A stretch of 20,508 nt of DNA from a bacterium (lineage in GTDB: Bacteria; UBP15; UBA6099), in assembly GCA_029564595.1 (NCBI GenBank), contig JAKQPS010000181.1, positions 1-20,508 of the forward strand, read 5' to 3'. This document shows, in pieces, positions 8,728 through 13,317 of the stretch. How positions within the stretch are numbered: the first letter of the stretch is position 1; each line of letters starts with the position of its first letter. The notes below the pieces were generated by a model. It had not been told where the DNA came from. It made no database searches and saw only the letters and a list, made by a program, of their open reading frames with translations. Both the position numbers and the translations under genes were made by a program.

Positions 8728-9261
8728 ATGGTGGCGATTCTTGTCGTTCTGATTATATTTAACGTGATTCTGGCGTCCGTGCTGATTAAGAAATGGATCG
8801 ACAACGCCCCCGCCGCAGAGCCGCGCCCCAAACAACTTCGAGGCCGCGAAAAGCCCATCAATGAATTCTTCTCCTCCAACGAACCCGCCGCCACAGATGT
8901 CGAGGTGCGCGAAATCGCAGAACAATTGCTGGACAGAATAGACAGAAAAATCGACGTTCTCAAAGAGCTTATCCGGCAAGCGGACTCCCGGATAGCCACA
9001 ATGGGCGGAGCGGCAAGAGAGCTTCCCGCCGCGACCCGTTCAAGGGATGACGCGGCGGACCTCGACGCCTCCGGCAGACGCGGCGCGGCGCGGCGCGGCC
9101 CCGCTTCCAGAGACGACTCACAATCCGGCGGCGTCGACAAACGCTCCCGCATCATCCAGCTTCACAGAAAAGGATTTTCTTCCACACAGATAGCTCAGGA
9201 AGTCCAGATGGGCCGCGGAGAAGTGGACCTCATCCTCAACGTCGAAGGCTTCGACCGCTAA
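8728..9261 (+). CDS. Membrane-anchored helix-turn-helix protein (DUF2802/YlxL-like)
   Basis: A 177-residue protein with a clear layout: one N-terminal membrane segment (residues 2-21), a linker, a coiled coil at about 57-90, a charged low-complexity stretch at about 100-138, and a C-terminal helix-turn-helix (RIIQLHRKGFSSTQIAQEV, then GRGEVDLIL) at about 141-171. The combination of TM, coiled coil and a C-terminal HTH resembling sigma-region-4 recalls YlxL/DUF2802/DUF6115 proteins, some of which are encoded in chemotaxis or flagellar operons. That family name is from memory. It is last in the operon and overlaps nothing; its Shine-Dalgarno is poor, consistent with coupling to the upstream gene. 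Confidence 0.75.
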   Translation: MVAILVVLIIFNVILASVLIKKWIDNAPAAEPRPKQLRGREKPINEFFSSNEPAATDVEVREIAEQLLDRIDRKIDVLKELIRQADSRIATMGGAARELPAATRSRDDAADLDASGRRGAARRGPASRDDSQSGGVDKRSRIIQLHRKGFSSTQIAQEVQMGRGEVDLILNVEGFDR

Positions 9262-9396: not shown

Positions 9397-9786
9397 TTAT
9401 GATTTGGAGCTTTCTCGAAAAAAAGCGGCAATAGCGGATTTGTTCATGCGGCCTTCGGCGACAGCAAGAACCATCTGCTCAAAAGCGACTTCATCAGCGG
9501 CAAAGTCAATATCATTCATAACGAGAAACACAAGCGAAGCGACGGCTCCGACACGCTTGTTTCCGTCAACAAAGGGATGATTCTTTACGATATGAAACAA
9601 ATATGCGGCTGCCATCTCAAAAATGTCTTCGTGCAGAAACTTGTCTCCGAATGAAGCCGCAGGCATGGCAAGCGCCGACTCAAGAAGGCCGACATCCCTT
9701 ATTCCAAGACTACCGCCGTATCTTGAGATCTGGTCTTCGTGAATCTGCAAAACTTCAGAAAAAGAAAGAAAAAGCGGCTCAGTCAC
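9397..9786 (-). CDS. doc: Doc-type (Fic-fold) toxin
   Basis: A 129-residue death-on-curing family protein, the toxin of a type II toxin-antitoxin pair. Doc proteins have a Fic fold but act as kinases; the P1 phage enzyme phosphorylates EF-Tu and blocks translation. The Fic/Doc motif HPFVDGNKR is intact at 70-78, preceded by the characteristic helix AAAYLFHIVKN. N-terminal IHEDQISRYGGSLGIRD and LLESALAMP are also typical. It uses a GTG start 4 nt after the antitoxin stop. The protein is full length and looks functional. Whether it phosphorylates or AMPylates its target cannot be read directly; Asn-Lys-Arg in place of Gly-x-Gly-Arg favours Doc-like kinase activity. Confidence 0.92.
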   Translation of the reverse strand: MTEPLFLSFSEVLQIHEDQISRYGGSLGIRDVGLLESALAMPAASFGDKFLHEDIFEMAAAYLFHIVKNHPFVDGNKRVGAVASLVFLVMNDIDFAADEVAFEQMVLAVAEGRMNKSAIAAFFRESSKS

Positions 9787-9790
9787 GATG

Positions 9791-10018
9791 TCACTCCGCC
9801 AGCCGTTTTAGAGCGCGGCCATACCGGGTATTGACCGAATCAAGCGCATTTGTAAACTTCTCCCGCCGCTTCTTGTCGCGCACCGGAGAAATAATAAGCG
9901 CGTTTCCGTCCGTAGAAATCTCAAGCGGCGTATCCGCGTCTACCTTCAGCAATTCCAGAATCGCCTTGTCAATCACCAACGCTAGACTATTTCCGTGTTT
10001 CGTCAGAGTCTTTACCAT
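9791..10018 (-). CDS. AbrB/MazE-type antitoxin
   Basis: A 75-residue protein with an N-terminal SpoVT-AbrB swapped-hairpin DNA-binding fold: VKTLTKHGNSLALVIDKAILELL, then a second beta-hairpin ending in NALIISPV at about 53-60. The C-terminal basic, helical tail (about 61-75) is where such antitoxins wrap their toxin. GGGGG lies 5 nt before the ATG. It is encoded just upstream of doc. AbrB-type antitoxins commonly partner Doc toxins where P1 has Phd. An inverted repeat next to the start codon is a likely autoregulatory site. Confidence 0.88.
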   Translation of the reverse strand: MVKTLTKHGNSLALVIDKAILELLKVDADTPLEISTDGNALIISPVRDKKRREKFTNALDSVNTRYGRALKRLAE

Positions 10019-10680: not shown

Positions 10681-12186
10681 CTACAGCCAGATAGTTTCCC
10701 AGTACGAGGCATCCATGTAGGAGTTGAAGACGCTTGCGAGAAGCGCGATTGGTTTTTGCGGAATAAACGATTTTGAGGCGAGATTGTCGTTTATCGCAGT
10801 GAAATTATTTTTCAGCACGCCCACCTGAATTCTATTGGAATTGAGAAAACCGAGGGCGTTGTCGATTATATCTATTGATTCCCTCGCTTTTTCCGCGGAG
10901 CTTGCGTCGGCTTTGGACAACCCGCTGGTTTCAGCCGTGCTTGTTTTGAACCGCTCGACTATGAGGTCCTTCGCGTCCGGCCCGGTTTGAAAATACATGT
11001 CCCAGTCGCCGAGGAGTTCGCGGGATGAACTGATGATTTTTTCCGTTATGACAATCTGGAATTTCCCTTCTTCGATGTCCTTTTCGACGCTGGCGATGAA
11101 GTTTTCAGTGACTTTATCAACCCATACGCCTTGTTTATCCATATTAAAAGCGGCGCCCTTGCCGACTTTATCGATGACATCCGTATAATCCTTGTCCGGC
11201 ATGGATGTTTCGTTGACTCCGACGACATAAAGCTCCGAGCCTGCGGATATCAGCGCGTCCGCGACGCTCTGCCTTAATTCTTCCGCTCCGGCTCCTTGTT
11301 GTGTATGGCTGGTTTTGGCATATCCTACGACGTCGAAGAAATCGTCTGAATACTCATCTGACAACATGACTGTCACTTTTGTGGCGTTTGGATCGAATTT
11401 ATCTCCGAATCTAGCCATCGCTTGGTCAAGGGACACAAGCCCTTTTTCGATTCCGCCAGCGATGTTTCCAAGAACTTTGTCCACATCAGCTTGGAAACTG
11501 GCCGCGTCGGACCTGAAATCTGTGGACCCGTTGCTGTCTAGGCTGATTTCAAAGCTCTCAATTGCCATTCGCACATCGAACCCTTTGTCTTCCAGCGCCT
11601 TGAACATTTTCTCAGCGTCTTCCTTGATATGCGCGATGTCGTCAGACATGCTGCCCGAGCGGTCAACCACCCATAAAACATCTATACGCGGTTTAATCTC
11701 GGTAATCGTGTTTTCTTCCACTTCCACCAATTGTTCGATTTCTTCGATTTCCTGCGTTTCCTCAAACCTAGCAAGAGTGTGGCTTCCGTGAATGTTGTTT
11801 GTCAGCCCGATCCTTGTCGTTTCGGCCTGCATTGCGCTGATTTCCTTATTCATGATCTTGCGTTGCGCGTCAGTTAACGTGGCTTCATTTGACGCTCGCA
11901 CAGCGACATTGCGGGCATGTGTCGCCATTTTGCTCTGCTCGCCGAGTCCCCAATCGCGCGCTCGTTGCCAGATCAGGCTCAAGTCCGTGTTTTCTCCAGA
12001 CATCTCATAGCCCGTTCTAGCGGCGGAAATCTCCTCGGTCATCATGCGGGCCGCCTGTTGCAAGTTGGCGCTATTCAGCGATGTCCGATTAGTAAACGCT
12101 TTTATCATAGCGTTTTTTGAATCATTGGTTCCGGACGTGGCTGACTGCGCGGCGAGCAAGAACGAATTGCTACCCATGATTTTCAT
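10681..12186 (-). CDS. Flagellin with an inserted von Willebrand factor A domain
   Basis: A 501-residue protein. Residues 1-135 read like flagellin D0/D1: SLNSANLQQAARMM at 36-49, DLSLI at 68-72, ARNVAVRASN at 91-100 (flagellin RELAVQASN), TLTDAQRKIMNKEI at 103-116, and TRIGLTNNIHG at 124-134 (flagellin RIANTTEFNG). Residues 431-470 match the flagellin C-terminal helix, with ARESIDIIDNALGFLNSNRIQVG and LKNNFTAINDNL. Between them, after an acidic linker (141-166), residues 167-380 form a vWA domain: IDVLWVVDRSGSM with MIDAS Asp175, Ser177 and Ser179, and VTVMLSDEYSDDF with Asp277. The final D0 helix is atypical, ending in YWETIWL. ATG 12186 has AGGCGG 6 nt upstream. A sigma-28 promoter precedes it. 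vWA MIDAS sites bind ligands through a divalent cation, so I infer a filament-displayed binding domain. Confidence 0.85.
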   Translation of the reverse strand: MKIMGSNSFLLAAQSATSGTNDSKNAMIKAFTNRTSLNSANLQQAARMMTEEISAARTGYEMSGENTDLSLIWQRARDWGLGEQSKMATHARNVAVRASNEATLTDAQRKIMNKEISAMQAETTRIGLTNNIHGSHTLARFEETQEIEEIEQLVEVEENTITEIKPRIDVLWVVDRSGSMSDDIAHIKEDAEKMFKALEDKGFDVRMAIESFEISLDSNGSTDFRSDAASFQADVDKVLGNIAGGIEKGLVSLDQAMARFGDKFDPNATKVTVMLSDEYSDDFFDVVGYAKTSHTQQGAGAEELRQSVADALISAGSELYVVGVNETSMPDKDYTDVIDKVGKGAAFNMDKQGVWVDKVTENFIASVEKDIEEGKFQIVITEKIISSSRELLGDWDMYFQTGPDAKDLIVERFKTSTAETSGLSKADASSAEKARESIDIIDNALGFLNSNRIQVGVLKNNFTAINDNLASKSFIPQKPIALLASVFNSYMDASYWETIWL

Positions 12187-12232
12187 GTTTGACCGCCTTA
12201 TTTTTGTTATATGGCAACTATACTTTTTCCCT

Positions 12233-12259: not shown

Positions 12260-12302
12260 GGTCTGAATAAATATTTTTTGCGTGTCATGTGGTTGTTCAG
12301 CG

Positions 12303-12546: not shown

Positions 12547-12884
12547 TTATGTTTGCTTTCTGATTCCCTCAAGCGCCTTCAACAATTCAGGAACCTTGTT
12601 TCCAATCGCGTCCCATAAGGTTTCTTCTTCAAGCCCGAAATAGAAATGAGCAAGCACATCTCTCAGCCCGGCGATTTTTCGCCATTCGATTTCGGGATGC
12701 CGGATCCTGACCTCTTCCGGAGCCTTTTTCGCCGCCTCGCCGAGAACTTCCAGATTTCGCAACACTGCGTCGTAAACAATCCCGCCGGAGAAAAAGTCTT
12801 TCTATCTACATTTCTTGTGTGCTCAATAATGTTGCGGCAGCAGGCCATCATGTCGTCGAGCCACATAGACCAGTCACGCGACAT
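12547..12884 (-). pseudogene. hepT: HepT-type toxin (HEPN/DUF86), frameshifted
   Basis: Toxin of the HepT-MntA module, a HEPN-fold RNase. The N-terminal part (from ATG 12884: MSRDWSMWLDDMMACCRNIIEHTRNVD) and the C-terminal part (KDFFSGGIVYDAVLRNLEV through the RX4HXY motif RDVLAHFY to LLKALEGI) lie in different frames. The span is 338 nt; one extra base would give 339 nt, 112 residues, the normal HepT length. The break falls near 12796-12805, where the minus strand reads GATAGAAAGAC; one additional A in that run restores a continuous HepT. So a single-base deletion, or a sequencing error, in a short A-run inactivates the gene. The start overlaps the mntA end by 11 nt, as is usual for the pair. 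Confidence 0.85.
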
Positions 12885-13167
12885 AAACAGCCTCCTTCTC
12901 CACAAAGGGCCTGACGCGGTCTCTTAATCCGCGCCGAGTTACAAGATCGACGCGACCGCCCAGCAAATCCTCAAGGTGAAACTTCAACTCCATATACTGA
13001 TCGAAAGTCGGCGGTTCCTTGAAGTCCACAAGGACGTCGATGTCGCTATCTTGACGCGCCTCATCACGCGCGGCGGAGCCGAACAGCGCAAGCGCCACAA
13101 TCCCGTGGCGTTCTTTCAGTTCAGCGTAGTTTTCTTCTAAATGCTTCAGTATCTCCGCCCTGCTCAT
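12874..13167 (-). CDS. mntA: MntA-type nucleotidyltransferase antitoxin
   Basis: A 97-residue minimal nucleotidyltransferase. The signature FGSAARDEARQDSDIDVLVDF has Gly30-Ser31 and the metal-binding Asp42 and Asp44, followed by a conserved third acidic position in the RVDLVTRRGL strand. Family knowledge: MntA inactivates HepT by AMPylating the Tyr of its RX4HXY motif. The ATG at 13167 was chosen because homology (MSRAEILKHLEENYAEL) begins there and GGAGG lies just upstream (reverse complement of gcgcctcc); the frame continues upstream without resemblance. With hepT frameshifted, the antitoxin is either a relic or still binds toxins encoded elsewhere. Confidence 0.88.
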   Translation of the reverse strand: MSRAEILKHLEENYAELKERHGIVALALFGSAARDEARQDSDIDVLVDFKEPPTFDQYMELKFHLEDLLGGRVDLVTRRGLRDRVRPFVEKEAVYVA

Positions 13168-13317
13168 GGCGCGCCTCCTATCAACTCCGATGATATTATA
13201 ACACACATCCAGCGACACGGACTTCGCCTCCTGTCTCAGTCCGCCATTCTGCCGCGCGGAAAGCCCGCAATAAGGTCGACTTTCTTGAACAAATACGCGA
13301 TTGTTCAAAATTCGCCA

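Follow-up and report, generated by a model that had tools for sequence, protein, structure and literature searches.

A diverged flagellin paralogue with an integrin-like vWA domain between its D1 halves

Does a single open reading frame at positions 10681 to 12186 of a 20,508-nucleotide stretch of bacterial DNA (hereafter the window) encode a flagellin with a vWA domain built into it, and if so, what would such a protein do? An initial annotation had read it in this way and had proposed that the product, perhaps a minor or tip subunit, turns the filament into an adhesin or a capture surface. The frame was recovered at these positions, and every motif quoted in that annotation was found in its translation. 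On the minus strand, it runs from an ATG at 12184-12186 to a stop at 10681-10683 and encodes a protein that we refer to as P0001. Although a second in-frame ATG lies upstream (12286-12288), the one at 12184-12186 is the preferred start because a sigma-28-type promoter lies between both ATGs and a Shine-Dalgarno-like sequence precedes the downstream ATG. The features of the locus are as follows:

10681..12186, minus strand: vWA-flagellin coding sequence (P0001), 501 aa; ORF calling, with a full-length ortholog, G001:C614
12233..12259, minus strand: sigma-28 (FliA)-type promoter TAAAGTTT-N11-GCCGATAT, first base 73 bases before the ATG; one mismatch to consensus
12193..12199, minus strand: Shine-Dalgarno-like AAGGCGG, 6 bases before the ATG; from the sequence, conserved in G001
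11782..12186, minus strand: residues 1-135, D0-N (strongly diverged) and D1-N helices (40-99, 106-130); phmmer against PDB flagellins, AlphaFold helices, VIA alignment with flagellins beginning at residue 37-46
11689..11781, minus strand: residues 136-166, acidic linker, predicted disordered; pLDDT <50 at 133-163
11071..11688, minus strand: residues 167-372, vWA / integrin I-like domain; PF00092, integrin beta structural match, family vWA profile
11650..11664, minus strand: MIDAS motif D175-R-S177-G-S179; D-x-S/T-x-S in all canonical family members
11446..11448, minus strand: E247, at the position of the MIDAS glutamate in integrin beta; family alignment, integrin beta-8 'EGG'
11341..11358, minus strand: D277-E-Y-S-D281-D282, third MIDAS loop and family-specific acidic pair; D277, D281 and D282 invariant in 11/11 aligned members
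10948..11004, minus strand: residues 395-413, beta-hairpin of D1 that bears the 'F-Q-T-GPD' motif of the phylum's flagellins (VGPD); alignment, strands 395-400 and 408-413
10771..10896, minus strand: residues 431-472, D1-C helix; AlphaFold pLDDT 78-93, phmmer stretch 413-473
10684..10770, minus strand: residues 473-501, short tail in place of the C-terminal D0 helix; alignments, tail shared with G001 (97% identical amino acids)

The central part of P0001 has a vWA fold. A search with the VWA profile, which the annotation had proposed as a check, returned PF00092 as the sole Pfam-A match (E 2.5e-4), although its 21.8 bits fall just below the 23.8-bit cut-off, and in the AlphaFold model residues 163-369 fold like an integrin beta I-like domain (VIA-align, Z 17.1). 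As claimed, the domain occupies the position of the flagellin variable region, between the D1 N-helices on one side and the 'GPD' hairpin and C-helix on the other. When a profile of the family's vWA parts was compared with the PDB, it matched collagen VI, a thread matrix protein, integrin beta and microneme protein MIC2, and its alignment places E247 on the 'EGG' glutamate of integrin beta-8; this glutamate of integrin beta is a MIDAS ligand. The full MIDAS pattern (D-x-S-x-S, T or E, D) is present as D175, S177, S179, E247 and D277. The MIDAS residues of the DRSGS motif and Asp277, singled out in the annotation, are conserved across the family: D169, D175, M180, D277, D281 and D282 are invariant across eleven aligned members, S/T177, S179 and E247 are nearly invariant, and position 247 is E in every vWA-flagellin compared except the D0-less G005:C34. 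Just after the MIDAS motif lies a D182-D183 pair with the spacing of the integrin ADMIDAS; it occurs in P0001 and its ortholog only, without counterpart in other members, and we therefore make no ADMIDAS claim. The vWA domain of P0001 is probably metal-binding.

The two ends of the protein are diverged flagellin D1 halves that bracket the vWA domain. With phmmer, PDB flagellins match P0001 in two collinear stretches, 3-138 and 413-473 (9atl, E 1.3e-7); NCBIfam flagellin models also match in two stretches (best E 4e-7), and the flagellins of the same genome match residues 46-125 and 422-471. No Pfam match to Flagellin_N (PF00669) or Flagellin_C (PF00700) was found even at E 10, so that the proposed profile check succeeded at both ends with NCBIfam and failed with Pfam, which overlooks these flagellin ends and was rejected as a sufficient test by itself. 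An identity as FlgL was also rejected, FlgL models being absent from the NCBIfam matches. In the AlphaFold model, built on a 21-sequence alignment (mean pLDDT 71), the D1-N helices reach block pLDDT values of 71-92 across residues 51-130, and a D1 domain forms from the N and C helices plus the beta-hairpin. VIA-align matches residues 44-482 to the filament subunit 9hpz (Z 19.3, 2.1 A, 182 residues). The annotation had noted D1-like helices at both ends and had proposed structure prediction to see whether residues 1-135 and 431-470 pack as a D1 bundle with the vWA domain outward; sequence matches at both ends and the modelled pairing, with the vWA fold in between, bear this out.

P0001 is a lone gene amid toxin-antitoxin-like modules, outside any flagellar cluster. 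The modules that flank it in the window (9397-10018 and 12547-13308) comprise, in one case, a Fic/Doc toxin and an AbrB-like antitoxin and, in the other, an MntA-like nucleotidyltransferase and a HepT-like ORF, seemingly interrupted by a frameshift; together with P0001 they form a lower-GC stretch (0.45-0.50). A DUF6115 protein (E 1.3e-8) is encoded a few genes away, at window positions 8728-9261, and is syntenic in G001. Upstream of P0001, the sigma-28-type site compares with a chance expectation of 0.18 sites at 3 or fewer mismatches, and the block that holds it is identical in the G001 ortholog, with indels in the sequence farther upstream. FliA is encoded in the same genome, similar sites lie upstream of several of its flagellins, and exact TAAA-N15-GCCGATA sites number 10 genome-wide versus 4 for a reversed control; a clear sigma-28 site is missing from most order-level relatives outside the genus. 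This near-perfect, conserved promoter-like site would place P0001 in the flagellar regulon.

In place of the C-terminal D0, the alignment shows a tail of about 30 unrelated residues, and the canonical ERLSSGLRIN stretch is lost as well. D0-N is strongly diverged and of low confidence in the AlphaFold model, with structural alignment to flagellins starting mostly from about residue 37. A complete D0 with both terminal helices is thus found in the canonical relatives and not in P0001, and the loss of D0-C is common to P0001 and its G001 ortholog. Flagellins that have been studied polymerise poorly once terminal D0 segments are lost, and ordinary polymerisation of P0001 is therefore doubtful. This qualifies the initial reading: its architecture is upheld by sequence and by the AlphaFold model and is joined by conserved MIDAS-type residues and a sigma-28-type promoter, but P0001 itself is a questionable filament subunit. 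For the vWA-flagellin family, a role as filament adhesin or capture surface is plausible; for P0001, a minor, tip or non-polymerised protein is as likely as a filament-wide adhesin, because both D0-C and the ERLSSGLRIN stretch are lost. Filament display appears to fit canonical relatives such as G006:C189 better: in a model built on its own alignment, residues 1-527 of that protein superpose on whole filament subunits with Z values of up to 21.4, which indicates that an intact D0/D1 core can accommodate a vWA insert.

The explanation that we favor, with moderate confidence, is that P0001 is a flagellin paralogue with an integrin-beta-like vWA (MIDAS) variable region that would be transcribed by FliA (sigma-28) alongside late flagellar genes, exported via the flagellar type III apparatus and ligand-binding outside the cell. 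There the vWA domain would be presented so that a divalent cation at the MIDAS coordinates an acidic group of the ligand. Canonical vWA-flagellins would be minor filament subunits that make the filament an adhesin, while P0001, because it has lost the C-terminal D0 helix and kept D1 and the MIDAS, would most likely be either a specialised minor subunit, placed at an end, only occasionally along the filament or through D1 contacts, or a protein that the filament tip releases. Against this explanation stand the isolated position of the gene outside a flagellar cluster, the lack of Pfam Flagellin_N and Flagellin_C matches, the lost D0-C with the diverged D0-N, and the absence of P0001 from two genomes of its genus, G003 and G002, the latter just 67% complete. 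The computation shows the architecture, the predicted fold, the selection, the promoter-like site and the family; export, location and the binding of metal and ligand are inferred.

A possible but less probable alternative is that P0001 no longer assembles and has become a vWA protein, secreted (or cytoplasmic), for which D1 is only a scaffold, heading towards D0-less paralogues like G000:C203. Such shorter vWA paralogues, without both D0 halves and without a Pfam flagellin match, occur in 6/7 phylum genomes and have the same hairpin pattern; the alignment links them putatively to flagellin. Their existence, the lost D0-C and ERLSSGLRIN stretch, and the very long branch on which P0001 sits (2.65 changes per column) would all suit a protein that has left the filament. 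On the other side, P0001 retains its MIDAS pattern and its sigma-28 site, while in these paralogues the MIDAS pattern is degenerate and a sigma-28 site is not clearly present. The G000:C203 paralogue itself (G000:C203:12350-13507; L113:9216-10514) has 432 aa, a D1-like hairpin, no D0 and a degenerate MIDAS; it lies downstream of lptB/lptG- and hpf-like genes and is conserved in G000-G003, and both G005 and G006 have relatives of it.

The extreme divergence of P0001 and its missing D0-C, together with a relative in G004 that has an internal stop, could also point to a decaying pseudogene or an assembly error of a canonical vWA-flagellin. However, the ortholog G001:C614 (also under record JAKQBV010000506.1, a MAG) is 89% identical along its whole length, the 501-codon frame is intact in both genomes with no indel between them, dN/dS between the two is low (omega 0.22 for the whole frame and 0.19 for the vWA part), and the tail is almost unchanged, which argues that P0001 is maintained. 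Judging by its isolate name, the organism is from soil. Because omega lies far below 1 and a separately assembled genome has the same tail, decay or misassembly is very improbable. No frameshifted D0-C was found in other frames downstream of P0001, and with the tail conserved, a frameshift or truncation of a full flagellin was rejected.

The layout recurs well beyond this locus. When the same architecture was sought in other genomes, as the annotation had advised, it was found in many loci, in the order and in three further phyla: vWA-flagellins with Pfam Flagellin_N and Flagellin_C are clear in the same order and rare in the other phyla, and P0001 is among the most diverged members. A Pfam scan of ten relatives matched Flagellin_N in nine and Flagellin_C in eight of these nine, the ninth (G004) being cut by a stop; VWA was matched in 7/10, and the remaining ones show the same motifs by inspection. 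All seven phylum genomes compared (7/7) have a vWA protein of this group, counting the shorter D0-less paralogues. In other phyla, G035 has a vWA-flagellin and G317 a degenerate version; G433, with Flagellin_N, VWA and Flagellin_C, was the only one seen on inspection of the matches among 398 genomes, and G950 was recognized by inspection among 195 genomes. These profile searches scored the best 3 to 8 candidates per genome, with matches inspected, and absences from them are not proof. Five candidates (G119, G411, G391, G795 and G796) were rejected on inspection as flagellins with other large inserts and no vWA. No plasmid-borne relatives of P0001 were found; plasmid matches to the G035 relative are flagellins, ordinary judging by their annotations only. 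The G035 genome also contains a 22,286-aa open frame with vWA domains (G035:C2:50073-83225).

In a tree of the core (D0/D1), the order's vWA-flagellins including P0001 form one clade (99/99), in which P0001 groups with the canonical G006:C189 and G005:C170, and the G035/G317 forms are nested in their own phylum's flagellins (100/100). In the vWA tree, the vWA of G035 is weakly joined to those of the order (91/87). Taken together, the two trees suggest that the variable region was exchanged or that a vWA domain was inserted repeatedly. Recurrence in many loci and purifying selection on the ortholog pair establish that the layout is not due to chance. That the terminal helices are a generic coiled-coil with a fortuitous likeness to flagellin would agree with the silence of the Pfam flagellin models, but is hardly credible given the collinear N and C matches, a D1 superposition that includes the hairpin, and relatives at 25-37% identity that are unambiguous flagellins. 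We tentatively propose, as a broader and rather uncertain view, that vWA-flagellins make up a recurrent class of integrin-like flagella that arose more than once through swaps of the variable region, and that in this genus the loss of D0-C turned one member into a MIDAS protein that is controlled by FliA, exported by the flagellum and active either at the end of the filament or free outside the cell.

The closest precedent is flagellinolysin, a proteolytic flagellin with a functional domain (PMC5595980; PMC7643111; NCBIfam NF033876). Like vWA-flagellins, flagellinolysins carry this domain in the hypervariable region between conserved D0/D1 halves and are scattered across diverse phyla. They differ in that their insert is an HExxH metalloprotease, while that of P0001 is a vWA/MIDAS domain predicted to be ligand-binding and non-enzymatic, and in that P0001 is without D0-C; P0001 has no HExxH, and NF033876 is absent from its NCBIfam matches. 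Integrin beta I-like and extracellular MIDAS vWA domains (MIC2, collagen VI, and Bdellovibrio Bd0875 of PMC11003981) have the same vWA fold and D-x-S-x-S with E and D ligands, and the integrin beta I-like domain is the best structural match of the insert (Z 17). Unlike these, the domain of P0001 sits on a flagellin, with an acidic pair (D281/D282) conserved in the flagellin group, and no integrin-like hybrid domain or alpha-subunit partner was seen for P0001. Sortase pilus tip adhesins such as SpaC also bear a vWA/MIDAS domain on a surface filament, as proposed for vWA-flagellins, but on a Gram-positive covalent pilus rather than through flagellar export and assembly. Among solved sequences, one of the closest to P0001 is the Sphingomonas A1 flagellin homologue of PDB 3k8v/3k8w/2zbi, which its depositors describe as a bacterial cell-surface flagellin; it shares the flagellin D1 fold and has no vWA domain.

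The annotation knew of no described vWA-flagellin, and our search of openly licensed papers likewise found none; no reference to vWA was found in the two flagellinolysin papers (PMC5595980; PMC7643111), nor is there one in a large survey of flagellin diversity (PMC7018530). Because flagellinolysins are a precedent and no vWA-flagellin report was found in these openly licensed papers, we rate the vWA-flagellin as a new variation on the flagellinolysin-type design. That filaments can bear enzymes is known from flagellinolysin; if the proposal is true, a MIDAS domain at this position would give a rotating filament many regulated, metal-dependent binding sites and motile soil bacteria a direct route to capture surfaces, polymers or other cells. 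Because the design recurs in several phyla, some bacteria may use flagella to grip ligands. The family is also a natural test of how much of flagellin D0 is dispensable.

The same genome encodes many flagellins, some with large inserts and one flagellinolysin-like, which is in favor of the explanation preferred here. The flagellinolysin-like one is a 553-aa flagellin with an HEMTH metalloprotease-like insert (L070:8251-9912; G000:C138) that matches NF033876 with E 6e-24, below that model's cut-off; 562-aa flagellin frames occur in G002 and G003. Two giant flagellins have 1006 aa (L071:8459-11479) and 919 aa (L072:7394-10153), the former with matches to PD40 propeller repeats and, weakly, to TSP3-like ones; a perfect sigma-28-type site lies 339 bases upstream of it. 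In a further flagellin, L073 (G000:C36:20820-21223), a separate frame holds the first 54 positions of the profile, which a frameshift or an assembly error would fit.
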